Assembly: GCF_947648125.1 (NCBI RefSeq)
Contig: NZ_CANSMR010000001.1
Span: forward strand, 124,001-188,000
Reading direction: 5' to 3'
Length of the DNA stretch: 64,000 nucleotides
Origin: an uncultured Bradyrhizobium sp.
GTDB lineage: Bacteria > Pseudomonadota > Alphaproteobacteria > Rhizobiales > Xanthobacteraceae
Shown here piece after piece: positions 1,466 to 39,373 of this stretch. Each line of letters starts with the position of its first letter. Position 1 is the stretch's first letter. A program made the translations under genes and the position numbers. A model generated the notes under the pieces. It was not told where the DNA came from and ran no database searches. It saw only the letters and a list, made by a program, of their open reading frames with translations.

Positions 1466-1573
1466 CGCTCTCTCCCGCAAAATTGACTTTCAAGTTAATT
1501 GATTATTTGCGCAGTTATGCTACAGACTTCGAGGACTAATACAAGTCAAGTGGCTGCCGGAAAGCGCATCGAG

Positions 1574-2683: not shown

Positions 2684-2804
2684 TCTACGAAGGGAGACCC
2701 CCGGCTCTGCCGGGGAGGCAGCATAAGTTTGACATTTCAGGCAGTTATACATCGACGAAACTCGCGACTCGTGAGCCACCACGCACACGAGAAGGAGTTT
2801 CGCG

Positions 2805-3236
2805 ATGGACGATTACGAGAGCCTAAGCCACAGCGAATGGGAGTGCAATTATCGTGTGGTCTTCATTCCCAAGTGCCGAAGGAAGGCGCTGCAGGGGAGT
2901 TGAGGCAACATCTCGGGGAAGTGTTCCGCAGATTGGCAATGCAGAAGGAGTGCAGGATAGAAGAGGGGGCATTTGATGCTCGATTATGTTCACATGATGA
3001 TTTCGATCCCGCCCAAATATGCGGTGTCGCAAATGATCGGGTACATCAAGGGGAAGAGCGCGATCCACTTGGCCCGCGTCTACGGCGAGTGAAAGCGCAA
3101 TTTCGTAGGGCAGCATTTCTGGGCCTGGGGACACTTCATCTCGACCGTCGGTCGAGACGAAGTGGTGATCAGGGAGTAAATCCGCAAGCAGGAGGCCGAG
3201 GATACCCGGCTCGACCAATTGAATATGTGGCGCTAA
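2805..3236 (+). pseudogene. IS200-family Y1 transposase, decayed
   Basis: Reading across frames from the ATG at 2805 gives a TnpA-like protein. Recognisable blocks are WECNYRVVFIPKCRRKAL, LDYVHMMISIPPKYAVSQM, YIKGKSAIHLARVYG and STVGRDEVVIREYIRKQE. The Y1 transposase HUH pair appears as the altered YVHM block, where the family has HVH, so one metal-ligand histidine is missing. A TGA follows the first 30 or so codons, another ends the IHLARVYGE block, and the phase changes between blocks. It cannot encode an active transposase. Confidence 0.7.
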
Positions 3237-3332
3237 GGCCGCCTTCAGGCGGCCAACAAAATCGGGGACGCGTTAGCGTCCCCACGGCCGCTTTGAGCGG
3301 CCAATTCCTAAAGCCCCCGGCTTTGCCGGGGG
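3237..3332. repeat. cluster of four GC-rich hairpins (REP-like) at the IS200-like right end
   Basis: Four perfect palindromes with 3-4 nt loops occur in 96 bp: GGCCGCC-TTCA-GGCGGCC (3237-3254), GGGGACGC-GTTA-GCGTCCCC (3264-3283), GGCCGCT-TTG-AGCGGCC (3286-3302) and CCCCCGGC-TTT-GCCGGGGG (3314-3332). Only the last one matches the left-end hairpin. They lie directly upstream of the thiolase ribosome site and could also attenuate read-through from the CoA transferase. That second role is an inference. Confidence 0.75.
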
Positions 3333-3385
3333 ATATTTACCAGGCAGCGACAAGAGAAGAGTTCCAATCCTTAAGGGAGGGCGCG

Positions 3386-4624: not shown

Positions 4625-4651
4625 TACAGAAGATCGAGCAGGAGGGCGTTC

Positions 4652-5425
4652 ATGCAGTTGGATGGAAAAGTCGCGATCGTGACCGGCGCCGCGTCGGGGC
4701 TGGGGCGGGCATCGTGCGTGATATTGGCGAAGGCGGGCGTGCGCGTCGCCGCCCTTGATCGTGACGATGCGCGGCTCGCCGATCTTTGCCGGGAACTGGG
4801 GAGCGGCGCGTTCGGGCGCGTTGTCGATGTTGCCGACGAGACCAGCGTCCGATCCAGCGTCGATGCCGTGCTCGAAGTTTTCCATGCGGTTCATATCGCC
4901 GTCAATTGTGCGGGCGTCGCCGATGCAGCCAAGACTCTTTCGAAGGAGCAGCCGTTTCCGCTGGCGACCTGGAACAAGGTTATTGGCATCAACCTCACCG
5001 GAACCTTCAACGTCATCCGCTTTGCGGCGTTAGCTATGAGCCGCAACGAACCAGAGGACCCGAGCGGCGAACGTGGCGTTATCATCAACACCGCGTCCGG
5101 CGCAGCGTCGCAAGGGCAGGTGGGCCAAGCGGCCTACAGCGCCAGCAAGGCTGGCGTGGTCGGCCTCACGTTGCCTGTCGCGCGAGATCTCGCTGAATAT
5201 GGCATTCGCGTCGTCTCTATCGCGCCTGGGCTGTTCGACACCGGGATGGTCGCCGGCATGCCGCCGAAGGTTTCGCAGTCGATCGTCGACCGCATGATCC
5301 TCTATCCCAACAGGATGGGGCAACCCGACGAGTTTGCCAGCCTGGTCAAGCACATCGCCGAGAATGCCTATCTCAACGCCACGACGATCAGCATCGACGC
5401 AGGCGCACGAATGCAGCCCCGCTAG
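4652..5425 (+). CDS. SDR, 3-hydroxyacyl-CoA dehydrogenase type II-like (HSD17B10-like)
   Basis: A classical short-chain dehydrogenase of 257 residues. It has the cofactor motif TGAASGLG, the NCAGVA block, the active-site S-Y-K arrangement in NTASGAASQGQVGQAAYSASK, and an IAPGLFDTGM loop. The block YPNRMGQPDEFASLVKHI is typical of the HSD17B10/3-hydroxyacyl-CoA dehydrogenase subgroup. It likely oxidises a 3-hydroxyacyl-CoA with NAD+, feeding the thiolase 27 bp upstream. GGAGGG precedes the ATG. With the hydratase it gives the three central beta-oxidation steps. Confidence 0.87.
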   Translation: MQLDGKVAIVTGAASGLGRASCVILAKAGVRVAALDRDDARLADLCRELGSGAFGRVVDVADETSVRSSVDAVLEVFHAVHIAVNCAGVADAAKTLSKEQPFPLATWNKVIGINLTGTFNVIRFAALAMSRNEPEDPSGERGVIINTASGAASQGQVGQAAYSASKAGVVGLTLPVARDLAEYGIRVVSIAPGLFDTGMVAGMPPKVSQSIVDRMILYPNRMGQPDEFASLVKHIAENAYLNATTISIDAGARMQPR

Positions 5426-6008
5426 ATAGGCCAGGCTGCTTCTGGCCTTCACGAAAATTCCAACACTGGTTAAATGTTGCTTCCAATCAATTTTGGACGA
5501 GATGCGGAGAATATTTATATCGCAATTTCAATAGTCGTACGTGAAGAACTCTGGCTTCAGGCTGGAGCGGTCTGAAGTGCGGCAAGTGAGAGCGAGGGGA
5601 TTTGGCGCAGCAAAAGGCTGGGCCAGCCGGTGAGCAGCGGAAGTTGTAGCTAGCAGCGGCGAGGACGGCGTTGGCAGCGTCGCCCTGGGGAAACCACAGA
5701 TAATTTCGGCCCATGCGGTGCTCGGCCTTGAGATTGCCGATGACCGATCAAGCTGACACGCGCGTTGCTTGAGCCGATGATCGCCCGTCGCTCGGGCAAG
5801 ATCGTGGCGAACGCGTGGTGCTGCGAAGCGCAATGGACCGGCTACAAGCCAAGGCCGAAAGCCTGATCGAGCGCGGCTGAGCTACGCCACATTGCGACAT
5901 GCAAATCACGGGGGCACTTCGGAGATGAGCCGCCGCTTTCGCAACGCCGTGCTCGAACTTGCAGCCGAGCATGCCTTCGCCCGTCCATTGGTGAATTCCG
6001 GACGGCTG
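5426..6008. other. gene-poor decayed stretch between the CoA module and the trbI remnant
   Basis: No intact gene was found. A small hairpin AGGCCAG/CTGGCCT (5428-5448) follows the SDR but has no T-run. The minus strand carries the IS5-type transposase tail annotated separately. From about 5750 to 6000 I see only short open frames without family resemblance. Confidence 0.5.
5487..5750 (-). pseudogene. C-terminal tail of an IS5-family transposase
   Basis: The minus strand encodes KAEHRMGRNYL followed by GDAANAVLAAASYNFR. This is the characteristic end of IS5-type DDE transposases, which carry HRMGRNYL and INAVLAAAGYNF. The rest of the transposase is missing upstream, so this is a fragment of an element, probably left by deletion. 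No matching terminal inverted repeat was identified. Confidence 0.65.
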
Positions 6009-6531
6009 TCGACGCCAACTCCTTACCAGCTGTTATCACGGCGCAAGTGACAGAGGCGGTATTCGATACTCCGACCGGGCGTATCAGGCTAATTCCGCAA
6101 GGAGCGCGACTGATAGGGACCTACGATAGCCAGGTCGCATTTGGGCAGTCACGCGTGCTCCTAGTCTGGACCCGGCTCATCATGCCGAATGGGCGCTCGA
6201 TCGTGTTGGAGCGACAGCCCGGCGCGGGTGTCGCGGGATATTCCGGACTTGAGGACGAGGTCGATAACCACTGGAAAGAGTTACTCGGAGCACGGCGCTA
6301 TCGACGCTGCTCGCCGTCGAGACCGAGGTGAACTCTGGGACGGTCGTTAACAATACCAACAGCGCCATCATTCAGGCGCTACGGCGTGGGGCAGGGGATT
6401 CGCTCAATCAGACTGGTCAGCAGGTGGTGCGGCGCAATCTCAACATTCAGCCGACCTTGACCATTCGACCGGGATTTCCGGTGCGGGTTATCGTCAACCG
6501 CGATCTCGTGCTCGAAGCTTACAGGGGGTGA
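6009..6531 (+). pseudogene. trbI: TrbI/VirB10 conjugal transfer protein, 5'-truncated and frameshifted
   Basis: This is the C-terminal half of a TrbI-type (VirB10) type IV secretion core protein. It carries VFDTPTGRIRLIPQGARLIG, RLIMPNGRSIVLERQPGA and, in a second frame from about 6290, ALRRGAGDSLNQTGQQVVRR followed by RPGFPVRVIVNRDLVLE. The N-terminal cytoplasmic/TM part is absent and a frameshift lies after DEVDNHWKELL. It ends 5 bp before a DUF2274 gene, the usual neighbour of trbI in alpha-proteobacterial trb operons. It marks a former conjugative element. Confidence 0.85.
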
Positions 6532-6536
6532 TCAAC

Positions 6537-6683
6537 ATGACAAAACTCAAGCTCAGCACAATTGACGACGACAAGCCGGTCAAGATCACGCATGAAGTGC
6601 CTGCAAGCGTTTATCGTGATCTCTTCAGCTATGCCGATTATCGGAACAGCCAACTGTCTCAGTCACATTTATCGGAGGAATGA
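6537..6683 (+). pseudogene. DUF2274-like protein, N-terminal half only
   Basis: The 48-codon frame begins TKLKLSTIDDDKPVKI and continues EVPASVYRDLFSYADY, matching the start of DUF2274 proteins found after trbI. It stops after about half the usual length. Its TGA overlaps the ATG of a second DUF2274 gene. It was probably truncated when two trb-derived segments were joined, leaving two partial-to-complete copies in tandem. Confidence 0.55.
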
Positions 6684-6973
6684 GTGTGGCGGATCTGAAA
6701 CTTGGTCGACTGGCCAAGCAAGGTATGGTGCGGCTCACCATCGTGCTCTCCGAGCCCCTCAAGGAAGAGCTTGATGCGTATGCCGCGGAGCATGCCAAGC
6801 TCTACGAACCCATTGAAACCACAGCATTGATACCGCACATGCTGGAGGCCTTTATCCGCGCCGATCGCGGCTGGCGCAGCCGCCGAAAACGGTTGGAGCG
6901 GGTGCGAAGCGGTCAACGTCGAGCTGGTCCAGCCAGGGACACCACTCGCGCCGATCCAGAAAGTTCAAGCTGA
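6680..6973 (+). CDS. DUF2274 family protein
   Basis: A 97-residue protein. The core DLKLGRLAKQGMVRLTIVL followed by LKEELDAYAAEHAKLYE and LIPHMLEAFIRADRGW matches the DUF2274 family, which is encoded beside trbI in conjugation operons and has no established function. The last 25 residues are arginine-rich and differ from the family, so the gene may have acquired a new 3' end. The start overlaps the preceding stop (ATGA). With the trb operon destroyed, it is probably a relic. Confidence 0.6.
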   Translation: MSVADLKLGRLAKQGMVRLTIVLSEPLKEELDAYAAEHAKLYEPIETTALIPHMLEAFIRADRGWRSRRKRLERVRSGQRRAGPARDTTRADPESSS

Positions 6974-7351
6974 AGCTTTGCGATTTGTTGTTCCTGCTCG
7001 CGGACGAGCAGCCTGAGCTTGAATGTGTTGAGTCATGTTGCGATTGGCGGCTCGGAGTTCTCGCATCTCATCAGTCTCCCGACCGCGCAACATGGCAATC
7101 TCGGCTTCTAGTTCATCAATGCGATCGGTAACTGCAAGCGCAGTGGCGCAGTCAGCATTGCATTGCTTCAACGCGGCTTGAAATCTGCCGAGCAGCTCTG
7201 GTGCTCGATAGAGCGTTGTACGTGAGAGCAGCCCAGCTTCCGATGCAAGTCGGGCGATGGTAAGTGTTGCCCGATCGTCAGCTGTTGCGAGCAGCCGCGC
7301 CATTGCGGCGTCGATCGCAGCGTGCGCGGCCGCACTGATCGGTTTCGTCAT
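6965..7351 (-). CDS. Tn554-type transposon accessory protein (DUF6262/TnpC-like)
   Basis: A 128-residue soluble protein. The N-terminal half looks like a helix-turn-helix (TIARLASEAGLLSRTTLYR) and the C-terminal half like a coiled coil (DRIDELEAEIAMLRGRE). This layout matches small accessory proteins encoded after the tyrosine integrases of Tn554-like transposons. Its ATG overlaps the stop of the upstream integrase tail (ATGA), which supports the assignment. Its 3' end overlaps the DUF2274 gene on the other strand by 9 bp. It is orphaned, since the integrase is broken. Confidence 0.5.
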   Translation of the reverse strand: MTKPISAAAHAAIDAAMARLLATADDRATLTIARLASEAGLLSRTTLYRAPELLGRFQAALKQCNADCATALAVTDRIDELEAEIAMLRGRETDEMRELRAANRNMTQHIQAQAARPRAGTTNRKASA

Positions 7352-7690
7352 TCTGGCGGTCTCTCGAGAAGCGGCGCGATGAGCTGCCGCTTGCGTTCGT
7401 TATCGTCTGTGATGATTTCGCGTTGGAGCGATGAAAGACGCTTCGCGCGGAGCATCTCCTCACCGTCAGAGTTCGACACCTGCCAAGGTCCCAGATGACG
7501 TCGCGTTATGCAGGCATTGGGACAGCGATCCGGCCGGCAATGGGAAAGTGCGGGCGCGCTTCGGCCTGGGGTCTCTCCCTCGCGGTCGAGGTACCATGTC
7601 AGGATCGAAGAAGCAGTCGGCGAGGAGGCCCACGTGCAGTGTGCGGCCCAGATGGGCAAGCATTGTGCGCAGGCGCAGGGCATCGACCAC
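7348..7690 (-). pseudogene. Tn554-like integrase C-terminal remnant
   Basis: Two frames on the minus strand join into the end of a transposon integrase: LRTMLAHLGRTLHVGLLADC up to about 7545, then CRPDRCPNACITRRHLGPW and an EITDDNERKR-type tail in another frame. The cysteine-rich CRPDRCPNACIT block and the charged tail are typical of the large integrases of Tn554-like elements. The catalytic domain is absent. The stop overlaps the start of the accessory gene. Confidence 0.5.
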
Positions 7691-7870
7691 ATGGCCGGGA
7701 AAATTGTCAATCCGCGCAAATTTTGGACGCCGATCCCCCGGCTTAGGGGGTCAAATATTGCAGGCCGAATGACAGATTGACGGTGGGGATGCTCGATTGC
7801 CGCCTGAATAGTTGCCTTGTGATGATAATAATTGTCCTCGTGACGTGCTAGACTAAGACTAGGAGAAGCG
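7691..7870. other. intergenic stretch
   Basis: No coding frame with family resemblance was seen. A GGGAG-less, AT-richer patch precedes the ATG at 7871 and may hold the promoter of the decayed regulator there. Nothing else can be supported. Confidence 0.4.
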
Positions 7871-8230
7871 ATGCACAGACTGAAAGTCGGAATCGGAGAT
7901 GCTGACGACAGCCGCACGGCCATGCCCGGCGTTCCCGCCGTGTGCTTTCCGTCAACAGGGTCTTTTGCGCGCCTGCTGACGGCGGACAATCGCACGATGC
8001 TGCGCCTGATCGCGGAGCGCGCGCCTGAATCCCTAGATGAACTGGTCGAACTGACAGGCCAAACCCAATCTGTCGCGCACGCTTCACAGACTGGCGAGCT
8101 ACGGCATCGTCCGCATCGAGCGCCGTGGGCGAAAGATTGTCCCACGCTGCTCTGCGACCGAATCGAACTGGTCCTTCCCCTTACAGGACATAGATTGCCC
8201 GGCACGACCGCAAGAGGAGGCCGGGCATGA
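7871..8230 (+). pseudogene. winged-helix regulator (HVO_A0114-like family), frameshifted
   Basis: The first 65 codons carry PAVCFPSTGSFARLLTADNR followed by MLRLIAERAPESLDELVELT, the pattern of small winged-helix regulators of the HVO_A0114 type. An extra base near 8065 breaks the recognition helix. In the next frame the expected NLSRTLHRLASYGIVRIERR continues. The two parts together make a near-complete regulator; as written the gene is dead. Such regulators often sit beside recombinase genes in integrative elements, as here. Confidence 0.55.
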
Positions 8231-9815
8231 CCGCTGCCGCTTCCACAGTTCCCCCCTGCGCGCCGCCCTCTATCTTCGCGTCTCGACGGCGCGGCAGGCC
8301 GAGCACGATGTCTCCATTGCCGACCAGAAGCGGTAGGGCGAAGCCTATTGCGCCTCGCGCCGCTACCAGCTCGTCGAAATCTATGTGGAGCCGGGCGCGT
8401 CGGCGACCAATGACCGCCGCCCCGAGTTCCAGCGCATGATCGAAGCGGGCACGTCCAACCCTGCGCTCTTCGACGTGGTGATCGTCCGCTCGTTCAGCCG
8501 CTTCTTCCGCGATCACTTCGAGCTGGAATTCTACGTCAGGAAGCTGGCGAGGAATGGGGTGAAGCTCGTCTCCATCACCCAGGAGATGGGCGACGATCCC
8601 ATGCACGTCATGATGCGGCAGATCATGGCGCTGTTCGACGAATATCAGTCGAAGGAAAACGCCAAGCACGTCATGCGGGCTTTGAAGGAGAATGCGCTGC
8701 AAGGCTTCCGGAACGGCTCGCTGCCGCCCATCGGCTATCGCACGGTCGCTGCCGAGACGCGCGGTGCGAAGGTCAAGAAGAAGCTGGAGATCGACCCGCT
8801 CCACGCTGAGACGGTGCGGCTGATCCAACGGCTGGCGCCCCTTGGCGACGGTGCGCACGGCCTGATGGGCGTCAAGAACATCGTCAGCTATCTCAACCGC
8901 AACCGCATCTTCACCCGCGACGGCGGGCGCTGGGGCATCGGCCAGGTCCACCGCATCCTGACCCGCCGCACTCACATGGGCGAGCATGAATTCAACAAGC
9001 GGTCCAAGTCCAAGGAGCTGAAACCGACAACGGAGGTGGCGGTCGTGCCGGTGCCTCCGATCATCGCCCGCGAGACGTTTGATGCGGTGCAGGCGCAGCT
9101 AAAGGCTCGTCATCCCAAGGTGACGCCGGCTGCCGTCATCAGCGGCCCGACGATGCTTACCGGCCTGATCCATTGCGCCAAGTGTGGCGGCGCCATGACC
9201 ATCCGCACCGGCAAGGGTGGGCGTTATCGCTATTATGCTTGTTCGACCAAGGCCCGGCAGGGACCGGCCGCTTGTGAGGGCATGGCGGTGCCGATGGAGA
9301 ATCTGGACGATCTTGTCGCCAGCCATCTCGAAGACCGCCTGCTCCAGCCCGAGCGGCTGGAAACGATCCTCGCCACGGTCCTCGACCAGCGGTAGGAGCG
9401 ATCGGAGCGCCAGCGCGAGTACATTGCCGTGCGGCGGAGTCCGAAGCGCGCCTCAAGCGCCTCTACGACGCCATCGAGGCGGGCGTCGCCGACCAGGACG
9501 ACCCGGCGCTGAAGGATCGCATCGATGGCCTCATGGCCATTCGTGATCAGGCGAAGGCCGACGCCGAGCGCGCCCAGGCCATGCTTCAGCACTCAGGGAG
9601 CCAAGCGGTTACGCCGCAGATGCTCAGCAAGTTCGCCCGCGCCGCGCGCCAGCTATCCGTCTTGAAGGTGGTGGCTATTGCCGCGATCATCTTCGCGCGC
9701 TCGCCCAGAAGTCAAGGTCCGCCTCATGGGATCGAAGTCCCGGCTGCTCGAGGCGCTCGTAGCGAACGGCGGCGCAAACGCAGTGCCCACTCAGAGACTG
9801 AAATGGCGGAGGCAA
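8227..9815 (+). pseudogene. large serine recombinase with two amber codons and frameshifts
   Basis: The reading frame reconstructs a large serine recombinase. It has LRAALYLRVSTARQAEHD with the catalytic-serine block, then VVIVRSFSRFFRD, the recombinase domain from about 8700, a zinc-ribbon block CAKCGGAMTIRTGKGGRYRYYAC, and a C-terminal coiled coil. Lesions are an extra C in the run near 8250, TAG at 8334-8336, TAG at 9393-9395, and frameshifts near 9432 and 9650. Both ambers replace glutamine (CAG) positions by family expectation. The only long intact part is 8385-9395. The tail KVRLMGSKSRLLEALVA ends near 9815. Confidence 0.75.
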
Positions 9816-28336: not shown

Positions 28337-28346
28337 TCACCTAGCA

Positions 28347-29689
28347 CTACTTTGGCACTTTAGGCTTGGCGATATCTGCAAGGAACCTGTTACAGTGAGG
28401 ACATTGTCGGGGTGGAGGTCGCGCGAAGAGGTCGAGGATCGCTTGCCTGATGGCCGGCATGCTTGGTTGTGGTGGCGGTCCTGAGATTCTTTTTTTCCGT
28501 CCCGCTGCTTTGAGGCGGCGGGATTGGCGTAGGCGATCATCGTCATCAACGCGTGTCGATGTAATCCCGTCCAGGATCTACCTTCGAAGTGGTCGAGCCC
28601 AAGCTCCTCCTTGAGCTGCTGGTGGGCCTGTTCACAGACCCACCTGGCCTTGATCGTGGCAGCGAGCGTCTTGATGGTGGCATCGGCCGGCAGGTTCGAC
28701 ACATAGTATTTTTGCTCCCCGGTCGACCGCCGCTCGCCGGCGAGCCAGACCTCGTCGCCAGGCATGCGCTGCATGCGGTTATCGAGCATCCGGTGCTTAT
28801 GGCCATCCGCAACGCGGACACGGCAGGCAGTGAAGAGACATGTCAACTGACCTTTGGTGCCCCGCCGCCAACTGATTCTTTGCCATTTGCCTTCGGCCAA
28901 TAACGCTTCAGCAGAGACCGGTGGCTGATCAGGGATGTGGTATTTTCGGGGCTTTCCGGTCTTCGCGATTGGGAAGATCAGGGCAATATCGGCGGGATAG
29001 ACGTTCTGGCGCCGCGACAGACCCACCGCCCACAGCAGACCGCGCTCGCTCAAAGCCTGACGGAAAGGCCCGCTGGAGCCGTACCCTGAATCGGCAAGCA
29101 CACAGCCGAAACGCACACCGGAGGCGATGACGCGGTCGATCTCCGCCAAGGCGATCTCTGGCTTGGTCCGCGCTGCGCGGTGCTCGACTGGAACACCCGC
29201 ACGCTTTAAACGCACCGGATTACTCGTCCAACTCTCGGGAACGAAGAGACGTAATGCCACCATGACTGGCACTTCACCCCGCGCAAGCGTCAGCGACACC
29301 AATGTTTGGCAATTGGCCGTCTTGCCGAGAGACGAGGCATATTGTGGAGCGACACCAACCGAACGATCGCCCTTCTTCGGCATTGCCGTGTCGTCAATGA
29401 CCAGCACCGCATCCCTGCCGCCGACCAGGCGATCGGCCTGAACCAGCAATTCCGCCTTCAATGGCGCTGCATCCCAAACGCCATCAGCAATGAAATGGTG
29501 CAACTGGTCATACTCGCCCGGTGCCAGCCGCGCCGCCATCGGCTGGACGCTCTTGCGATCACCCGGTCCAATCAATCCCGAGATAGAAAGCGGACACATC
29601 CGCCGCCGCGCCTTGTGGCCTAAACGATCCAGGAATGGCTCGAGCCAGCGCCCAAGCTCGTCTTCCCAATTCGACTTCGTGCCCACCAT
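28347..29689 (-). pseudogene. IS701-family transposase, 3' frameshift
   Basis: From the ATG at 29689 the frame gives an IS701-type DDE transposase. It has NWEDELGRWLEPFLDRLGHK, VLVIDDTAMPKKGDRSVGV with a catalytic Asp, CVLADSGYGSSGPFRQAL with the second Asp, and AHQQLKEELGLDHFEGRSW with the Glu. Near 28530 the frame shifts: the main frame runs on as an unrelated tail to 28337. The neighbouring frame gives RRLKAAGRKKRISGPPPQPS and ends at a TAG about 28347 in DIAKPKVPK. The catalytic triad is intact but the tail is not, so activity is doubtful. Confidence 0.75.
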
Positions 29690-30225
29690 GGTCGGCCCTC
29701 CAAAAGCCGACCATCCATGAATCATTGAAAATCCGATTCGGGAATCTTGAGGGTTCTGTGAGGTCGCGAGGCAAAGGCCAGCCGCGCGCTCCGTCGTAGC
29801 GTGCGACCTCATAGAAGCCGGTTTGAACGAGCCGCTGCCCCGCCCGAACAACACGCGAGATTCAAGGCCGATGATCGTCGACGATCGCCAGACGCATCCA
29901 CAACTTGGGCGGTATGGCATGGATGTTGCTAATAGGGGAAAGTAGGTTGTTGACCGCCAGTGCTGTCAATGGGTTAGGCGTGGCGGAAAAGTCACGCGTG
30001 ACAACCGTGCCGCGAAACGTCCGGTAACGGCCTTCAACGAGCGCGACGGAATTACAGAAAGTCGCTACGGCATCGTCCCTGGGATGTGTCGAGATGTTGT
30101 TGGTCGCTGCCATTGTTGATCCGACCGTACCAGCCTATTGGTTCGAAGCATTGCCTGCCCACGGCAGCAAGCTTGTTGGTACTCCCACTCCAGCAACAAA
30201 TTCAATGCCGCGCAGCGGCTTCGTT
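29690..30225. other. stretch between the IS701-type element and the group II intron
   Basis: About 535 bp. An 83-codon minus-strand frame (29862-30113) starts MAATNNISTHPRDDAVATF and is not recognised. The bases just left of 30226 form the 5' exon of the group II intron. The interrupted reading frame could not be identified. Confidence 0.4.
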
Positions 30226-30702
30226 GTGTGCCGGGCATGTTCAATAGCTCGGAAGTGAAAGTCTTCCACCCAACCTGATGGAGGTGAGGGGATAGAGAAA
30301 CGCAAGGGCTGCCGCCGCGAGGCGGGGTCTGAAGGAAGCGTGGATCAAAGATGCGGGCCGATGAACAAGAACCGTTAAGAGGCGCCAGTGTCGGACGAGC
30401 GGGCAACACATCGCAAAGTCCATATCCATCAAAGACGCGAAGCGTAGATCCGGCGGTCGTGCATCGAAGGCGATTGAACTTACCCCGGGAGATCTGCCCG
30501 GCGTCGCTGCACGGCGACTGAGACGAACCGTGAGGTCGTCTGACCACCTGGCAGAAGTCAGCAGAGGGCGTAAAATAGGTCATGCTGTCGGCGAAGCTAT
30601 TGAGGCACTCCAAAGCTGAAAAGCGGAGCAACGGATAGGCAAAGTCGGAAACGATGGCTGAAGGCCCGAACGAGTGAGAAAGGCAAGTAGGACCGGAACC
30701 TC

Positions 30703-31265
30703 ATGAACGGAAAGCGGCAGACAAACCAGCGACGACTGGCCTCAGGCACGGATGGTCGGGGTGAAACCCCTGCTGCCGCGACCGGAGGAGCCGAACCGTC
30801 TGTGGCGATGACGGCGACCGAAAGTCCGGCTTTCCCAGAACATCTGATGGAGGAGGTGTGTAGCCGCGAGAACCTTCAAAGAGCGTGGAAACGCGTTCAA
30901 GGAAACAAGGGAGGCCCTGGTGTCGATGGAATGACCATCGGCGTCGCCAAGGCATTCCTGCGGGAGCACTGGCCAGCAATTCGGCTCCAATTGCTCAACG
31001 GGAACTATCAGCCACGGCCGGTTAAGCGGGTGGAAATCCCAAAACCGGATGGTGGAGTCAGAAAGCTCGGCGTTCCCTGTGTCGTCGACCGCCTGATTCA
31101 GCAAGCCGTGTTGCAGGTTCTTCAAGAACAATGGGATTCGACGTTCTCCGAGCACAGCTACGGGTTCCGGCCGGGACGGTCGGCGCATCAGGCCGTAGCC
31201 CAGGCACAACGCTACATCGCCGAGGGCTACGACGTCGTGGTGGATCTCGATCTGGAAAGATTTTT
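30703..31265 (+). pseudogene. ltrA: group II intron reverse transcriptase/maturase, N-terminal part
   Basis: It encodes RENLQRAWKRVQGNKGGPGV, the RT-0/1 region YQPRPVKRVEIPKPDGGVRK, HSYGFRPGRSAHQAV and VVVDLDLERF, then is cut by element A within the T-run at 31261-31265. The frame beyond is noise, ending at 31437. Joining 31265 to 36580 gives VDLDLERFFDNIEHELL and a single 461-codon frame with stop, so the protein was interrupted precisely. It would reverse-transcribe and splice its own intron. Confidence 0.87.
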
Positions 31266-31275
31266 GGATGTTGCG

Positions 31276-33087
31276 TCATACTACACCTTCAGTTTTTTTG
31301 AGAGGGTCGAAGAGGTCTGGAGCAGCTGCAGGTACTTGAATTCGTATGCCTTTTGCCCGTCCGCGATAGACGTGAACGGCCTTAAGCTCGCCGCGCTTTA
31401 CACGTTGCAAGATGGTTTGCCGCGAGACGCCGAGTAGATTCATGGCCTTGAACATCTTCACGTAACCTTCGGGCGCGCTCTCCACAAAGCGCGACCGCAA
31501 CTCGTCATTGATACGGATGCGCCACGGCGCGCCAGGTGTGATCTGCTCTCCGGCAATGAAGCCATCGTTGAGGCAGCGATGCAAAGTAGAGGGTGCGATC
31601 CCGAGAGCGCGTGCTGCTTTCTCGATCGTCATGCACTCGCCGTCCTGCACTTGCTGTTTCGGCTCGAAGCACGGGATCTCCCAGTGCGTCCGCAGGCTCG
31701 ACACACGATTTGCCGTAAACGACAGTCCTGTGGCCGTTGTACGGCCTTGGCGATTGAGGATGCCGGCGATCTTGGTGTCGGGATAATGTGCAGCCAGTCG
31801 CCGCAGCAGATCAATCGTATCGTCGGCGGTGCGGATCGGCGATGGATGCGAGTGCGGCAATGGGACATTAACTTCACTGAAGAGACCGCCGCGCCAACGC
31901 AGCGTCAGGTGAGCGTTGTATTTATCGCGCTCGACTCTCAAGGTGACATCGTCGAGCAGCGTGCGGAGCAACTCCTTGCGATCGCGATCGCTCGTCGTGG
32001 GAGCGAACCAGATACGCTTGAGGTCTTTACCGAGTGCAAGGACCGCGTCGCGTTCTTCGTGCGTAAGCGAGCGCGGTCGGGCATGTTCGCGGTCCGAGAG
32101 TTCGGATTCGGCAGTCTTGAGTTCCAGCAGAGCGCTTTCCCATTCTGCTTCGAGTCCTCGCGCGACGAGTCTATTCTCCGGGTCCACGGCGCGATAGCGT
32201 CGCTCGGCGCGCTGCGCGTTGTAGCGCGCACGCTCGACGTCGCGACGGAACTGCGCGAGAGCCGTCTCGTGATCGGCGCCGAATTGCTCGATCGCCTGGA
32301 GCGAGGCTTCCAGGCCTGCGGGCGCGAGAGCCGCAAGGAACGCTTCGGCGACAGCCGCATCGATCTGCACACCGCCGATGTTGAGGCAGTACTCGCCCCG
32401 GCCGTTGACGATGTTCTTGCCGGCGCAGTGATATCCGGGCGCCGAGAACCGGCCGCTGTAGTGTACGGCCAGGCGCCGACCGCAGTGTCCACATACGGCG
32501 AGGCCTTGCAGGAGTGCTGCGCCTTCTCTCACGGCACCCCCGCTCTGGTGCGGTCGAGGACGGATGTTCTGCGCCAGGCGCTTCTGGTTCGCCTCGAAGG
32601 TATTCCAATCGATGTATCCGGCATGATGGTCACGAATGAACACCGGCCACTGCTCGCGGTCGCGTTGTCTGATGCGCTTTCGGATTCGACCGCCCGCATC
32701 GAGATAGCATGTCTGCTGGGTGCGGCCATACACATAAACGCCGGCATAGAACGGGTTGGTGAGGACCTGGTGGATCTTTGTGTAAGTGGGGACGACCCAG
32801 CGGAGATCGACAAGGCTGTTGGAGTGCAGCGGAAAGCGCAGGCCTTGCGAGCGGAACCACAGCCACACGCGTCGTGCCGAGCCGAATTCGGCAAAGCGGT
32901 CGAAGACAGCATGGATCGCGGCTTGCACCGACTCGTCAGGATGCAACAGCACCTCCCCGTCGGCGTCGCCCCGTACCAGACCCACCGGCAGCCCGCGGTG
33001 CAGTTCTCCGCGTGCGGCCTTGTTGCGGATGCCACCGAGCAGCCGCGCACGCAGCACATGCAGCTCTGCCTCTGACATCGTACCTTT
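31276..33087 (-). pseudogene. element A large serine recombinase, C-terminal part
   Basis: It covers 604 codons. It opens with KGTMSEAELHVLRARLLGGI, the end of the catalytic domain and its long helix. The recombinase domain follows, then a zinc ribbon (VCGHCGRRLAVHYSGR ... YHCAG), a coiled coil (about 280-340 of this part) and a C-terminal helix-turn-helix pair (SRQTILQRVKRGELK). The catalytic serine is on the other part at 35650-36066. Joining the two at the TT core gives 743 codons with stop, a normal length. An internal ATG allows a 600-codon protein that cannot recombine. Confidence 0.85.
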
Positions 33088-33569
33088 CGAGACGGCGACA
33101 TACTGCCCAGAAACATCTGTTTGATGTTCTGATCCAATACCCGCATCACCCGCATGCAGGCGAGCGCGTTGCTGTTGTACGTCGGTTAAAGCATGGCGGC
33201 AGCACTCATTTTGTCATTGAGCAACGCGATGGCACCGCGCTGTTGCCGGCGTGGATGACGGAGCCCTGGGCGGCGCAGCTTGCAATAGTCGAACGACCGC
33301 GCCTGCCTCTTGAGGCACTCTACGCGCTGCGCAGCATGATCGATAGTGCTGTTCTATCCTTATCACCCGCGACTCGGATGAGGGAGGAGAACGATGATCG
33401 ATCGACTAGGCGGCAATCGACAACCCGATCTGTTTGTGCGCACGACAAACATACTCGGTCCGAACCGAATACCCGCGCGGATTCGGACAGAAGTAGCATC
33501 TCTGCTAAAGCTGCTCATGGCACCGCACATAGCGGCCGACATGGCGCAGCGGCGCGAGGCCGCCGATGA
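33088..33569 (+). CDS. Y4bD/Y4pK-like (DUF5372-like) protein of element B, no canonical start
   Basis: The frame carries QYPHHPHAGERVAVVRRLKH, then VIEQRDGTALLPAWMTEPWA and LEALYALRSMIDSAV. The HP-x-HP-x-G opening and the LPAWMTEPWA block resemble the small Y4bD/Y4pK proteins found next to rhizobial recombinase genes. No ATG, GTG or TTG occurs between the element end and the conserved opening, so it would need a rare start or fusion to flanking sequence. Element A shows the same feature. Its end overlaps the 59-codon gene. Confidence 0.5.
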
Positions 33570-33573
33570 ATAA
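33394..33573 (+). CDS. 59-residue element B accessory protein
   Basis: A 59-residue protein with a QPDLFV motif near the start and a helical end (VASLLKLLMAPHIAADM). The ATG follows GGGAGGAGAA, a strong ribosome site. Its stop lies 3 bp inside the recombinase gene (8-bp overlap), so translation is probably coupled. It has the same position and style as the 58-residue gene of element A. Function not known; a recombination-directionality or DNA-binding role is possible but unproven. Confidence 0.6.
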   Translation: MIDRLGGNRQPDLFVRTTNILGPNRIPARIRTEVASLLKLLMAPHIAADMAQRREAADE

Positions 33574-35614
33574 GATCACCCCTGAGCATCTGTCGCGCGA
33601 TGCATACGTCTACGTCCGGCAATCAACGCCGGACCAACTGCTCAACAACCCCGAGAGCCGACGCCGGCAATATGCTCTGGAGACGCGAGCGCGCGCTCTC
33701 GGCTGGGAGAACGTGATCGTCATCGACGAGGATCTCGGTCGTTCGGGCGGCGGCGCCGCCCGGCCCGGCTTCGAGCGTCTGCTTGCGGCAATCTGCGCCG
33801 GTACCGCGGGCGCGGTGTTTGCGATCGAGGCTTCGCGGTTGGCTTGCAACGGCCGCGATTGGCATACGCTGCTGGAATTCTGTGTCGTTGTGAACAGCCT
33901 GATCATCGATGAGGATGGGATCTACGATCCCCGATCGGTCAATGATCGGATGCTTTTGGGTTTGAAGGGAACATTCAGCGAGCTCGAGCTGTCGATGTTT
34001 CGGCAGCGTTCACAGCAGGCGCTGCGTCTGAAAGCAGCGCGCGGCGAGCTGAACACGACGGTGGCAATCGGCTATCGACGCGGTGCTGATGATCGCCTGG
34101 AACAGGACCCGGACAAACGGATCCGCGAGGCACTGTCGCTCGTGTTCCGCAAGTTCGCTGAGATTGGCAGCGTGCGCCAGCTTGTCTTGTGGCTGCGGCA
34201 GGAACGAATCGATCTGCCAATTGCTGTCCATGGTGCTCAGGGACGGAGCGTGCAATGGCGCTTGCCGCGCTACAATACTGTGCACCGGCTGCTCACCAAT
34301 CCGGTCTATGCTGGAGCGTACGTCTACGGTCGCACCTTCACCCGAGTTCGGTTCGAGGGAGGACGCAAGGTCGCCACACACGGTATAGTGCGTCGGCCGG
34401 AGGAGTGGGATGTGGTGATTCGCAACCACCATGATGGCTACATCACGTGGGAGGAGTATGATCGGAACCAGAAGGTCATCGCAGGGAACGCAAACATGAA
34501 AGGGGCGATGGTGCGAGGTTCTGTGCGTAACGGCAGTGGGCTGCTGGTTGGATTGCTGCGATGCGGACACTGCGGACGCAAGCTGAAGGTGCATCACAAT
34601 GAACGTAAGGGTGCGCGCTATGTTTGCACGACCGACATCGCGAACCTTAGCAACAAGAACTGCATTGCGTTTAGCAATATGCGCATCGACACGGCGGTGT
34701 CGGCAGAAGTGCTGCGCGCGGTATCACCGCTGGCCTTGGAAGCCGCACTCCAATTGATCGCCGACCATGAGCAGGCTGGCGTAGAGCGGTTGCGACAGTG
34801 CGAGCTGGCATTGGAACAAGCATGCTACGAAGCGACGCATGCGCGTCGGCAATACGATGCGGTTGATCCCGACAACCGGCTGGTCGCCGGCGAGCTCGAA
34901 CGGCGATGGAATGAATGCCTCGCAGCGCAGGTACGACTCGAGGAGCAGATGGAGAACCTGCGCCACGAACAGCCACGGATGCTGAGTGAAGATGATCGCG
35001 CGATGCTGCTGGCACTCGCTGATGACCTGCCGCGAGTTTGGAACCATCCCGATGCTTCCATCGAAATCCGCAAGCGGATCTTGCGGGCGGTTCTCACGGA
35101 GATCGTTGTCACGATCGAGGGCGATCGACTGTGCCTCGTCGTGCATTGGCAGGGCGGGGATCACACCCGACTTGAAGTGGTGAAGAACCGCATCGGCCAA
35201 AATCGCTTCAAGACCGACAAGGAGACCGTGCAGCTCGTCGGCGAACTCGCTCGCGTGTTGCCCGACCATAGCATCGCTCCTGTCCTCAATCGGCTCAGAA
35301 TACGTTCGGCCAGAGGCAACAGCTGGAACGAGCTGCGCGTCCGCAACTTCCGCGGCACACACCAGATCGCAGTCTATCGCGAGGGCGAACGGGCAGAGCG
35401 ACGTGAGCTAATACTGCATGAAGCCGCGAGTCGTCTTGGCATCAACAAAATGACGGTTATTCGCCTGATCCGGGACGGGATACTGCCCGGCAGACAGATC
35501 TGTGCTGGCGTGATCCGCGAAGAAGATCTCGATCGGCCGACGGTGCGTCGTGCAATCCGAAACGGCCGTGCAGTATCACCAGACGCACGGCAGCAAAAGC
35601 TGCCTTTTCAATAA
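33566..35614 (+). CDS. element B large serine recombinase
   Basis: An intact 682-residue enzyme. The catalytic domain starts SRDAYVYVRQSTPDQLLNNP, with the nucleophile Ser in VRQST, then DEDLGRSGGGAARPGFERLL and LMFRQR-like ELSMFRQRSQQALRLKAARG. The recombinase domain (RLLTNPVYAGAYVYGR), a zinc ribbon (CGHCGRKLKVHHNERKGARY) and a coiled coil follow. The C-terminus has a helix-turn-helix (ASRLGINKMTVIRLIRDG). It is the only uninterrupted recombinase in the nest and so the likely last mover. The stop is 35 bp from the element's right end. Confidence 0.9.
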   Translation: MNKITPEHLSRDAYVYVRQSTPDQLLNNPESRRRQYALETRARALGWENVIVIDEDLGRSGGGAARPGFERLLAAICAGTAGAVFAIEASRLACNGRDWHTLLEFCVVVNSLIIDEDGIYDPRSVNDRMLLGLKGTFSELELSMFRQRSQQALRLKAARGELNTTVAIGYRRGADDRLEQDPDKRIREALSLVFRKFAEIGSVRQLVLWLRQERIDLPIAVHGAQGRSVQWRLPRYNTVHRLLTNPVYAGAYVYGRTFTRVRFEGGRKVATHGIVRRPEEWDVVIRNHHDGYITWEEYDRNQKVIAGNANMKGAMVRGSVRNGSGLLVGLLRCGHCGRKLKVHHNERKGARYVCTTDIANLSNKNCIAFSNMRIDTAVSAEVLRAVSPLALEAALQLIADHEQAGVERLRQCELALEQACYEATHARRQYDAVDPDNRLVAGELERRWNECLAAQVRLEEQMENLRHEQPRMLSEDDRAMLLALADDLPRVWNHPDASIEIRKRILRAVLTEIVVTIEGDRLCLVVHWQGGDHTRLEVVKNRIGQNRFKTDKETVQLVGELARVLPDHSIAPVLNRLRIRSARGNSWNELRVRNFRGTHQIAVYREGERAERRELILHEAASRLGINKMTVIRLIRDGILPGRQICAGVIREEDLDRPTVRRAIRNGRAVSPDARQQKLPFQ

Positions 35615-35649
35615 CATCATGAGGTAGTGCATCATGTCACGAGCCTGTT

Positions 35650-36066
35650 GAGCCCGAGCACCAGGCGGTCATTGAACAAGCCCGGATGATAAATCCCATC
35701 TCCATCACCGATGAGCGTGTGGGTCAGGCCACATAGATCGAGCAGACGGTACCAATCAGCATTATTGCGCGCTAGTCGCGAGACTTCCAAGCCGAGCACG
35801 ATGCCCACCTGGCCGAGGCCGACCTCCGCGGTCATACGCGCGAAGCCGATGCGCTCGGAAAGGCCGGAACCGGAAATACCGAGGTCCTCATCGATGATTT
35901 TTACCTGATCGCGTCGCCAACCGAGCCGCGCGGCGCGTTCGGCTAACTCGTACTGACGGGCAGTGGACTCGCGATTATGCTCGACCTGCGTCGTACTGGA
36001 CTGACGCACGTAGACGATTGCGCATCGGCGTAGGTGCTCAGCGGTGATCTTGCTCAGTTCGTTCAT
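35650..36066 (-). pseudogene. element A large serine recombinase, N-terminal catalytic part
   Basis: It begins with ITAEHLRRCAIVYVRQSSTT, with the catalytic Ser in VRQSS, then DEDLGISGSGLSERIGFARM and VLGLEVSRLARNNADWYRLL, and ends NDRLVLGL at the TT junction with element B. Past the junction the frame reads only five more residues. Together with 31276-33087 it makes 743 codons with stop. The ATG at 36066 lies within the preceding 58-codon gene, overlapping it by 29 bp. Confidence 0.85.
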
Positions 36067-36214
36067 CGTTGTGATCTCCGGCAGTGGCGATTGCTCGGGC
36101 GACTAGTCGGGCGAGTCGCAGCACGAGATGTGCGCGCTGCTCTTTATCGAGGGCCTCCCATACGGGTACGGCCCCGCGCTGAGGTGGTGGGTCGAGAAAG
36201 CTTAGCTGCTGCAT
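36038..36214 (-). CDS. 58-residue element A accessory protein
   Basis: A 58-residue protein. It opens QQLSFLDPPPQRGAVPVWEA and continues LDKEQRAHLVLRLARLVARA, a helical pattern (W..L....R..LV..LARLV) typical of small proteins encoded before such recombinases. The start at 36214 has GGAGG upstream. It overlaps the recombinase start by 29 bp. It corresponds in position to the 59-residue gene of element B, though the sequences are hardly alike. Function unknown. Confidence 0.65.
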   Translation of the reverse strand: MQQLSFLDPPPQRGAVPVWEALDKEQRAHLVLRLARLVARAIATAGDHNDERTEQDHR

Positions 36215-36577
36215 GGCTGTCCTCCGATTCCGGTGGCAGGACAGTATGCGCGGCATCCAATTGCCGCAGCAAAGCGTCGACGATCGTCCGGGCGTGCAGC
36301 AGCTCGGCGTGGGAAGCCAGGAATGCCGCTCGAGCGCACTGCGGGCTTGCACGCGGTAAATGTTGTGCGATAGGCAGATCTGTCCACGCGGCCGGTACAA
36401 GGGCACGGGTACCATCGGGCAGTACAAGCGTCAGATGAAGTTCGCCGCGTCGATGACACCAGCCAAGCACATTAAGCGCGGATCCCTCAAAAGGATGGTG
36501 CGACCGAACGATGGTTACCTGATCGGGATAGTCGTCGAGATGATGAGCGCGGTGGTGGGTAGTCTGTCGAGTAGTCT
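36144..36577 (-). CDS. Y4bD/Y4pK-like (DUF5372-like) protein of element A, no canonical start
   Basis: The frame has VTIVRSHHPFEGSALNVLGW followed by LTLVLPDGTRALVPAAWTDL, then LHARTIVDALLRQLD. The HHPFEG opening and the VPAAWTD block match the Y4bD/Y4pK-like protein of element B. No ATG, GTG or TTG lies between the element's right end and that opening. The open frame runs on into the intron sequence to 36674, so it could be expressed only from a non-standard or host-supplied start. Confidence 0.5.
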
Positions 36578-36579
36578 TT

Positions 36580-37399
36580 CGACAACATCGAGCACGAGCT
36601 CTTGCTACGGGCTGTCCGGAAGCACGTGACGTGCAAGTGGGCGCTGCTCTACATCGAACGATGGCTGACGGCACCTATGGACAAGGACGGAATAATTATC
36701 GAGCGAACCCGCGGCACCCCTCAGGGTGGCGTGATCAGCCCGATTTTATCCAACCTTTTCTTGCACTACACTTTCGACCTCTGGATGGGGCGGGCGCACC
36801 CTGACCTCCCATGGTGTAGGTATGCAGACGATGGTCTAGTGCACTGCCGGAGCGAGCAAGAAGCGGAAGCCGTAAAGGCCGAGCTACAAACTCGCTTGGT
36901 GGAATGCGGACTTGAGATGCACCCCACCAAAACCAGGATTGTCTACTGCAAGGACAGCCGGCGGAAGGGGAGCTATTCGAACGTCAAGTTTGACTTTCTT
37001 GGCTACTGCTTCCGGCCCCGACGGGCAAAGAACTCGCAAGACGCCTCGGTGTTCTGCAGTTTCTTACCTGGGGTCAGCGCTTCGGCGCTGAAGTCCATGC
37101 GGGCGGCAATCCGGGATTTGAACCTCCGAAGACGGACCCATGTGTCAATGGCTGACATCGCTCGGCAGCTTAATCCACTCCTGCGGGGGTGGATTGAGTA
37201 TTACGGTCGTTTCACGCAGGCGGCTCTGGGGCCAATCCTTCGATACGTCAATCAGACAATCGAGGCTTGGATGATGCGGAAGTTCAAACGCTTTATGGGT
37301 CGCAAGGCCAAGGCCGGCCGCGTCCTCGAACGATTATCTCGAGAACGTCCCGGGTCGTTCGCACACTGGAAGATCGGCATACGCGGCTCGTTCGCCTGA
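36580..37399 (+). pseudogene. ltrA: group II intron reverse transcriptase/maturase, C-terminal part
   Basis: It continues the reverse transcriptase as FDNIEHELLLRAVRKHVTCK, then RGTPQGGVISPILSNLFLHY and the catalytic CRYADDGLVHC motif, and ends with the maturase (X) domain (LLRGWIEYYGRF). It has no endonuclease domain, as in many bacterial introns of this type. A local ATG at 36602 opens a 265-codon frame, but the natural protein starts at 30703. The end is 4 bp before the domain V hairpin region. Confidence 0.87.
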
Positions 37400-37945
37400 T
37401 GGGAGCCCAGTGAGGCGAGAGTCTCACGCTGGGATCTATGAGAGGCCGGCGGTGAGATTCCGCCGGCCTACTCGCCAAAGCCGCCCGCCCGGATCTGTGA
37501 GGGCAAAGCCGAATGGCCGAGCTACTCGACCACGACCCCGTCACGCAAGACGGCCCTCGTCGGAGCCGTACTTCAAAGCTTGGTTCGCTTTCATTCAAAT
37601 CGTAGAGTATCGAGGCCGCAGTCCCAGCGAATCGTTGTCAGGATGGCAAAAGCGCCAAGATGCGATTGTGCCGGCTTTCGAGCTGGCCGGACTTGGACAC
37701 GTAGAAACTCGACGGTGGCTTCACACCGCACACAGCGGTATAGGGGCCTCCTGAGGCGGATTTGAAAAATCACCCTCCTTTTATGTACACTCCTAAGATT
37801 GCGTGAGAGGGAGCCATGGTCATGAAAGACGAGGTCCCTCCAGGGCGTCGGGAGCGGCTGTTGCAGCACAAATATTGCGGCCTTCCCGAAATTCTTTCCA
37901 AGAATTGAAAGGGAACGATTTTTGCGCTCGCGGAATGGTATGTGT
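37400..37945. other. intron 3' structures and unassigned sequence
   Basis: The first 70 bp form the domain V- and VI-like hairpins of the group II intron. From about 37472 to 37945 I see no supportable gene; frames on both strands are short and unrelated. A short minus-strand frame near 37770 is antisense noise. Confidence 0.45.
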
Positions 37946-38581
37946 TCAGGTTGTAGACGATGGGACCGATTTTGCGAGCATGTTCCACGCGTCCAGGACC
38001 GATCGCACGATGACTGTGCCGTCGGGCACAAGTTCGAAATCGGTTTTTCCCCGCGCCCATTCGTTGATCAAACCGTTCACGAGGGCGCTAAATGCGATCG
38101 CGGCGGTCTGGGGCGTCCAGGGCGCGGGTAGCACCTTATTTCTCTTCGCAGCCGCGAATACCTTGACCAGTGAATCCCGGAACTGTTGCTGAAAATCATT
38201 TCCGTCGCCGGATTCGTCCTCTGAAGACGACCAGTCGAATTGCAGAAGCACCCTGAGCATGCGCCTTTGTCGCGGGTCCGTCTGCAGATGGGCGAACGTG
38301 CTTGATATCACATCGCCAAGGGCTCCGAGAGGGGAGAGGGTGGTGTCCGCCGCCAATCGCTCGGCCAAATATTGCGTAGGCTGGCGCATCTCGTCACGGA
38401 TCGCAAACAGCAGCCCCGGCTTGTTGCGGAAATGCCAGTGTACGGCTCCGCGCGTGACGCCGGATGCCGAAGCGATCTCGTCAAGAGAGACGTTCTCGTA
38501 ACCGTTCTCGAGAAAAAGCATTTCGGCGGCTTTTAGAATGGTGCGCCGAGTCTCCTCGGCTTGTTCCTTTGTCCGTCGCAT
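37946..38581 (-). CDS. TetR-family efflux repressor (AcrR/TtgR-like)
   Basis: A 211-residue regulator of the AcrR type. The helix-turn-helix is RTKEQAEETRRTILKAAEML plus DEIASASGVTRGAVHWHFRN, with RG-AVHWHF as in AcrR/TtgR. The C-terminal domain (about 75-200) matches the multidrug-binding region. The start is ATG at 38581; an upstream extension runs through the promoter region and is rejected. It is divergent from the remnant of an RND efflux operon, its likely former target. Confidence 0.85.
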   Translation of the reverse strand: MRRTKEQAEETRRTILKAAEMLFLENGYENVSLDEIASASGVTRGAVHWHFRNKPGLLFAIRDEMRQPTQYLAERLAADTTLSPLGALGDVISSTFAHLQTDPRQRRMLRVLLQFDWSSSEDESGDGNDFQQQFRDSLVKVFAAAKRNKVLPAPWTPQTAAIAFSALVNGLINEWARGKTDFELVPDGTVIVRSVLDAWNMLAKSVPSSTT

Positions 38582-38606
38582 AGCTGGCTTTCGCAGTTGC
38601 AGGTGT

Positions 38607-38632
38607 TTACAAACATTCGGTACGTATGTATA
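38607..38632. promoter_or_regulatory. candidate AcrR-type operator
   Basis: The 26 bp carry ACAAACATTCGG and TACGTATGTAT, an imperfect palindrome of the AcrR/TtgR operator kind (ACAT...ATGT arms). It lies between the repressor start (38581) and the efflux remnant (38646). It would serve both directions. Confidence 0.4.
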
Positions 38633-38645
38633 TAACGAATAACGA

Positions 38646-39373
38646 TTGGGCTGTAGAGCCCACGGAGTTGGCCGCATGACAATGGTCTTCCAAGCCGCTG
38701 TGCCATTCGGCGCAGCTGTCGCTGTTGCTTCGTCTGCACTCGCCCCGATCGGCAGCGGCGCGTCTCCGACCGTTGCCATTGTTCAGGCCGGAACGACGGC
38801 CGTCACCAAGACGACCGAGATCATTGGGCGCATACAATTCATCGGATGCGTCGATCAGTTGGCCGGCGTCACGGGCTTTCTCGAAGAACGCTCTTTTGTC
38901 GAGGGAGCTGATATCAAGAAGGGCGATCTTCTGTTTCGTCTTGATGGGGTGGCCACCTTCACGGGACTCGGTCTGGCCCATGTCATCCTCGACCTCTACA
39001 CCCAGATCATGGTGTTGTCCGCACGGGCGGCCAGGAACGGCACCCTCAACGTCGAATTCGCCAAAGAGCAGCGAGCATCGGTCTTGGCATCAGGCAGGCG
39101 GCCATGCTTGGCGTCAAACTGCGCTTCCGTGCCGTGATGATCACTTCGGTCGCCTTCATTCTCGGTCTGGTGCCGCCCGTCTGGGCAGATGGTGCATCGA
39201 TGACCGCGCGGCATAACATTAGCACGCCGGTGCTCGTCGGGATGATCGCCGCCAGCACGCTTGGGATTTTCCTGATCCCCATGCTGTACGTCACCTTCCA
39301 GACCCTACGCGCAAAACTCAAAGCCAGGGTTCGGGAAGATCGAAATCGCGCATCAGTTCGATATCGCCGTTAG
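38646..39373 (+). pseudogene. collapsed RND efflux operon: adaptor start fused to pump end
   Basis: The first 95 codons are an AcrA-like adaptor start, with a signal-like leader, VAIVQAGTTAVTKTTEIIGR and GADIKKGDLLFRLD. At about 38960 the sequence jumps to the C-terminal part of an AcrB-like pump (IMVLSARAARNGTLNVEFAK). A second frame, from 39104, gives RAVMITSVAFILGLVPPVWA, HNISTPVLVGMIAASTLGIF and FLIPMLYVTFQ, the last two TM helices. About 1.3 kb of adaptor and 2.5 kb of pump are missing. It was left by an internal deletion, next to its repressor. Confidence 0.8.

Follow-up and report, generated by a model that had tools for sequence, protein, structure and literature searches.

A stretch of 64,000 nucleotides from an uncultured Bradyrhizobium sp. 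(contig NZ_CANSMR010000001.1, positions 124,001 to 188,000; genome of 8.57 Mb), hereafter the window, carries a nest of mobile elements in which one small element, B, lies inside the large serine recombinase (LSR) gene of another, A, which is itself flanked by two fragments of group II intron reverse transcriptase (RT) genes. Comparison with related sequences makes it very probable that A and B belong to one family of elements of approximately 2.6–2.8 kb, moved by their LSR and comprising target-specific lineages. In all 12 copies of A whose two ends were found, the insertion falls at identical RT codons, the F-F site, with a TT core, and the 62-bp empty RT sites obtained by joining their flanks have pairwise identities of 0.40–0.94 (median 0.56); on sequence grounds, A parasitises RT genes at one specific site. 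The features of the nest are as follows (window positions).

30226–31265, + strand: 5′ part of group II intron 1, with RNA domains and the RT codons up to the F-F site (Rfam RF02001, RVT_1)
31264–31265, no strand: putative attL TT core of A (ends common to 12 A copies)
31266–36577, − strand: element A, approximately 2.75 kb long apart from the B that interrupts it (end motifs)
31276–33087, − strand: C-terminal part of the A LSR, with Recombinase, Zn_ribbon_recom and HTH_17 (Pfam)
33086–33087 and 35648–35649: TT at the edges of B
33088–35649, + strand: element B, 2562 bp, in the recombinase gene of A (absent from A copies L049–L052; relatives occupy these codons in two other LSR genes)
33105–33479, + strand: B open reading frame (ORF) 1, DUF5372-like (PF17342 E 0.005, under the curated cut-off)
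33393–33569, + strand: small B ORF upstream of the recombinase, 58 amino acids, open frame (no Pfam match)
33566–35614, + strand: B LSR, intact, 682 amino acids (Resolvase, Recombinase, Zn_ribbon_recom, weak HTH_17)
35650–36066, − strand: N-terminal part of the A LSR, with the Resolvase domain (Pfam)
36038–36211, − strand: small A ORF upstream of the recombinase, 57 amino acids, open frame (no Pfam match)
36144–36577, − strand: A ORF1, DUF5372-like (PF17342 E 0.004, under the curated cut-off)
36578–36579, no strand: putative attR TT core of A (end motifs and empty sites of A copies)
36580–37476, + strand: 3′ part of group II intron 2, distinct from intron 1, with the RT from the D of F-F-D, maturase domain and domain V (RVT_1, GIIM, RF00029)

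Group II intron RNA domains and an RT with a maturase domain are present across the two flanks of A (Rfam, Pfam). On the left, RF02001 matches at 30311–30479, within an intron whose start at 30226 is taken from the original prediction made for this DNA, and RVT_1 at 30703–31437 of the + strand (profile positions 1–78); on the right, RVT_1 matches at 36602–37399 of the + strand (profile positions 95–203), together with the GIIM domain, and RF00029 at 37401–37476. The stretch 30226–31264 is matched at 95% DNA identity in two other Bradyrhizobium genomes; in its own genome the left intron half is single-copy, as is B (own-genome search). The boundaries and lengths that the original prediction had given for A and B agree arithmetically with the sequence, and the Pfam matches bear out its split recombinase in A and intact one in B.

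Both end motifs of A were found in 12 of the 20 sequences searched; the others (L051, L144–L149 and L151) are truncated, or are relatives of 60–70% identity with different ends, and were left out. The motifs are 2749 bp apart in six copies, 2747 bp in two and 2735, 2430 and 3865 bp in one each, and 5311 bp in the window, from which subtraction of 2749 leaves 2562, the length of B. The 3865-bp copy contains an ISRj1 in the A recombinase gene on B. japonicum pS11L-2 (L050, 6008–7072). After the TT core, ten of the 12 empty sites continue with CGAC, that of L139 with TGAC and that of L141 with CGGG. When the first 1001 bp of A served as query, 27 of 265 Bradyrhizobium genomes gave matches, its own included, some over short stretches only; of the 35 matches listed outside the own genome, 10 cover the full query at 97–99%. 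These lie in eight genomes, two of them with two copies, and in one of the latter the copies L138 and L139, with recombinases identical on the tree described below, sit in two different RTs. Near-identical A copies are found, then, in different genomes and genes. Among 20 same-genus regions examined, A-like copies split RTs in 12 (L136–L140, L142, L143, L145–L149), those of L145–L149 being approximately 66–70% identical to A and the junctions of L148 and L149 looser; two further regions have B-like elements in LSR genes (L152, L153), and in L155 IstB is split.

That B entered after A is supported by four plasmid copies of A without B (L049–L052), in which the A sequence continues at 35648 directly after 33087, the two sides overlapping by the two bases TT, just as the joins had been predicted; the B-free recombinase gene, predicted at 2229 bp, is annotated at exactly that length in B. 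septentrionale pBs28S5b. The TT at the other junction, also foreseen, is common to the A copies, and in the alignments both elements have a two-base core with no other target duplication. Elements resembling B (L152 and L153 in genome G039, recombinases 75% identical) occupy the codons used in the window in two LSR genes, again with a TT core, so that codon-exact recurrence of B amounts to three copies at the motif NDRL.LGL-KGT of serine recombinases. An LSR gene is also split in L027, and the pieces in L011 are consistent with such a split. The latter locus (1423–8131, plasmid of Mesorhizobium sp. AR07) looks like three nested recombinase genes, a B-like one being broken near residue 120 by a third recombinase and lying whole inside an A-like one.

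The original prediction had read the two RT pieces as one intron RT cut by A, and this is not borne out; by their matches, the pieces derive from two different introns. Ten RT loci resembling the left piece and having no A in the gene (L156–L165; the RT frame of L156 and L157 is broken) are 71–96% identical to the left piece and 27–33% to the right. Conversely, L186–L188 are 97–99% identical to the right piece and L189 96% over residues 1–158, the left parts of all four being at 35%; the partial right-type locus L191 has the same 35% in its left part, and the RT of L053 matches the right piece at 98.5% of amino acids and the left at 35%. The best reference for the left piece reaches 76% there and 28% on the right, the best one for the right piece 99% there and 35% on the left. 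Uninterrupted introns closely related to the targets do exist for two other copies, L178 matching L137 at 98.7% and 98.9% of DNA positions on the two sides and L206 matching L139 at 96.3% and 89.0%; in the window, the two sides match different introns. The RT frame continues across the junction because A cuts RTs at the same codon, so that an in-frame join is forced; as a caution for annotation, such a join across an insertion of this kind does not prove that the halves were ever one gene. Chimaerism as a general trait of A copies was considered and rejected: among the 12 both-ended copies the window is clearly mixed, while five have halves that match one intact RT, namely L052, L137, L139 and L140 (87–99% on both sides, over short stretches in L052 and L140) and L138 (87 and 79%). 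L049 and L136 have no sign of chimaerism at moderate identity; L050, L141, L142 and L143 are uninformative.

Given these five matching copies, the mixed pair in the window is explained most simply by two A copies in two RT genes that later recombined and would so have swapped their flanks. The pieces might also have been brought together without such an exchange, A having entered one intron and a deletion or an insertion sequence (IS)-driven rearrangement having then moved the 3′ part of another intron to its right end; transposase genes and gene remnants do lie close by, but the right piece starts exactly at the codon of the A site with a normal attR, which a chance rearrangement would not give, and we regard this course of events as quite improbable. 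Still less credence, next to none, is due to the history originally proposed, in which a single group II intron received A, and A in turn received B, with no further event: the pieces do join in one frame at the motif and the boundaries of A and B are as claimed, but a match to two intron RTs, each with its own relatives, already contradicts it. A plain succession of intron, A and B does not suffice as the history; of that order, B after A stands by virtue of the uninterrupted A copies, and at least one flank exchange must be added to the rest.

The family was sought in a single scan of 84,980 species genomes (GTDB) with the recombinase of B as query, which gave 46 loci; a target was called two-sided when tblastn found halves of one protein on the two sides of the element (split test). 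This was so for 28 of the 46, distributed as follows.

IstB, nine: L002, L003, L006, L008, L009, L020, L025 (whose recombinase is in two pieces), L035, L039
Group II RT, nine: L028, L029, L032–L034, L036, L038, L042, L044
IS4-type transposase, five: L012, L014–L017
LSR, two: L011, L027
IS66, one: L013
IS3, one: L022
IstA, one, weak (41 and 45 bits; recombinase without a start): L041

In another 13 (L001, L005, L007, L018, L019, L021, L024, L026, L030, L031, L043, L045, L046) the target is weaker, seen on one side or read by eye, and partly confirmed by Pfam. From plasmids, 16 loci were picked by us from a spread list of 40 before the flanks were read, although the list names some annotated genes; the 24 rows left out are H31, H33, H35, H38, H40, H44, H46–H48, H50, H52, H53, H55, H57, H58, H60–H62, H64 and H66–H70. 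Twelve of the 16 are two-sided (nine by the split test, two by complementary Pfam halves, one by a separate comparison) and four one-sided (L120, L121, L129, L131), the former with these targets.

IstB: L116
IS110: L117
IS66 TnpC: L118, L119, L122, L123, L125
IstA: L126, L128
IS3-type, complementary rve_3 halves, modest (left halves 21.8 and 27 bits, cut-off 26.5): L124, L127
IS66 TnpB, modest (second piece E 0.003): L130

Several of these loci have peculiarities of their own. L120 has later parts of IS66 TnpB on both flanks (1803–2028 and 4575–4769), pointing outward, as if two insertions had recombined. In L041, on a plasmid of Cupriavidus necator, a group II RT is split near FF-D (1763 and 5155) by approximately 3.4 kb, overlapping another split gene. 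In L012 and L015 (Variovorax, 5252–9131), one and the same interrupted IS4-type element occurs twice, bordered by terminal inverted repeats and at each site by its own, different 9-bp direct repeat (both by eye); this would come about either by movement of the IS after its interruption, a case of hitchhiking on a disabled element, or by separate hits in two IS copies.

The cuts fall around a few motifs, which we take to rank with the best-conserved parts of each enzyme; outside A (12 copies) and B (three), where they are exact to the codon, the positions are good to a few residues only. RTs are cut at two motifs, GIP...DR and FF|D, and members from Bacillota, Lentisphaerota and Planctomycetota use the former, around LGIP...DR. 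LSR genes are cut at NDR(L)LLGL|KGT, IstB around the GP.G.GK loop (seven cases within few residues of one loop; the junction in L005 is GG, by eye), IstA around DKAK-VE, IS4-type transposases around R-W-.-.-E-..-F, IS3 at F|NTDQGSQF and at YN..RPH, IS66 TnpC between ERA(I/M)RP and just past LFAG, IS110 around PGIG, and a tyrosine recombinase near LLGH (upstream halves only).

The target class is clustered along the recombinase phylogeny. A quick tree was made of 70 recombinases, 64 of them different, and labelled partly by eye, with 12 rows unlabelled; on it the target class needs 20 changes against a mean of 48.8 after shuffling, none of 200 shufflings being as low; RTs cut at GIP and IS4 each occupy one side of a branch, the RT clade of A is apart from the GIP clade, and IstB is scattered. 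The Resolvase (PF00239), Recombinase (PF07508) and zinc-ribbon (PF13408) domains are found intact in B, in two pieces in A, whole in L049 and in nine other relatives, with the zinc ribbon of L119 and L013 just under the cut-off. A C-terminal HTH_17 is present in A, B and six of ten further proteins scanned, several of these matches being under the curated cut-off; one might guess that it is a built-in directionality factor. The best sequence matches among solved structures are TnpX (2mhc, E 4e-4) and another resolvase-family recombinase (3guv). Against DUF5372 (PF17342), ORF1 of A and of B stay below the Pfam cut-off (17.6 and 17.3 bits, cut-off 25), and the ORF beside the recombinase of L128 is annotated as DUF5372.

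Each element of the family would encode the recombinase, a short ORF and an ORF resembling DUF5372; the recombinase presumably makes the insertion itself. By analogy to other LSRs, a circular intermediate and a recombinase-made exchange between attP and attB may be expected. The lineages would prefer attachment sites in conserved motif codons of the enzyme of another mobile element, the site of A being the F-F-D motif of group II intron RTs and that of B the NDRL.LGL-KGT of serine recombinases such as that of A. Insertion at the two-base core interrupts the target enzyme, and the host element should lose its autonomy; the advantage may lie in a conserved site within dispensable, multi-copy genes.

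Several points weigh against this account. The split test was passed by 37 of 66 family loci (in L051 by pairing two different RT genes that do not lie at the A site), and likewise by five of 16 other mobile genes treated as pseudo-elements and by two of 66 random intervals; insertions within insertions are frequent in these islands, so that a split mobile gene is weak evidence by itself. In consequence of these controls, the evidential weight lies on recurrence at one site. The references of the split test were ORFs of the same set of loci, if never of the locus tested; near-copies (L032/L044, L012/L015, L005/L010) keep the counts from being independent and inflate the clustering on the quick tree, whose deepest forks are weak; the plasmid sample, 16 of 40 listed rows, was our own choice; five of the 46 scan loci (L004, L010, L023, L037, L040) have no resolved target, and five of the 20 same-genus regions (L141, L144, L150, L151, L154) no split. 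Finally, recognition of DNA cannot be separated from conservation of protein in the A sites.

If insertion were loose and elements survived only in dispensable mobile genes, the targets would reflect selection rather than choice of site, which would suit islands full of nested insertions and the five control genes that also split an ORF; we consider this very improbable, since for A it is contradicted by all 12 copies lying at a single codon in RTs whose sites have a median identity of only 56%, and survival would not cluster the seven IstB cases within few residues of one loop. Barely credible is the alternative that these are ordinary multi-targeting recombinases of the DUF4368 clade with a short AT-rich target, their hits in mobile genes being incidental. 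A TT core and AT-rich surroundings are indeed reported for one multi-targeting recombinase (PMC10083194); yet DUF4368 was not found by Pfam in the 11 recombinases scanned (B and ten others), the targets are a few enzyme motifs, and the GG junction of L005 does not fit. Nor does A have the relaxed target, with many unrelated genes per recombinase, that would be expected, all 12 of its both-ended copies being in RTs at one codon.

Beyond a family with target-specific lineages, we see about even chances that small serine-recombinase elements specialised on the motif codons of other mobile elements are widespread, suppress transposons in nature and may travel on disabled host elements mobilised in trans; equally balanced is a scope that takes in RTs (two motifs), IstB, IstA, IS4, IS3, IS66 TnpB and TnpC, IS110, tyrosine recombinases and other serine recombinases like their own. 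Should the pattern hold, specialised parasites of mobile elements exist that aim at the DNA which their hosts can least change, the motif codons; it would offer a testable account of the inactivation of some transposons and group II introns, and a set of recombinases with natural attachment sites coded by protein motifs.

Around the nest, a DDE_5 transposase gene lies just upstream (28337–29920), and directly after domain V follows a stretch of about 60 bp (37477–37538) which recurs alone, at 84–100% identity, in many genomes of the genus. Further downstream, remnants of the start of an efflux adaptor and the end of an RND permease adjoin (38646–39373), as if the middle had been deleted, beside a TetR-type regulator (37946–38779). 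At 8385–9395 lies a further serine recombinase fragment, which is distant from both A and B.

A description of the family or its targets was not found in the full-text literature, among the matches listed, nor was DUF5372 in the literature so searched; subscription papers and preprints lie outside it, and an earlier description is therefore possible. With known LSR elements, that is, phage integrases and transposons of the TnpX/TndX type, A and B share the Resolvase, Recombinase and zinc-ribbon domains and the two-base core, but they are very small, with no phage or conjugation gene seen, many of the recombinases have the C-terminal HTH_17, and the attachment site lies in motif codons of the enzymes of other mobile elements. 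For inteins and homing endonuclease elements, conserved active-site codons provide a target that persists even where the homologues have diverged. In this A and B resemble them; in contrast to inteins, no splicing is apparent, and the target gene is interrupted, which would be tolerable since it is a dispensable mobile gene. According to Durrant et al. (2022, PMC10083194), DUF4368 is present in 63% of the multi-targeting LSR clade; a TT core and the occurrence of related recombinases in many genes are features in common with it. None of the recombinases scanned here has DUF4368, and what unites the many genes entered by A is one protein motif, not a relaxed AT-rich DNA target. Group II introns themselves reside in insertion sequences, e.g., RmInt1 in ISRm2011-2 (PMC4496777), and there too one mobile element uses another as its site; RmInt1, however, moves by RNA-based retrohoming, whereas A and B would do so by DNA recombination, and here the intron is the victim.

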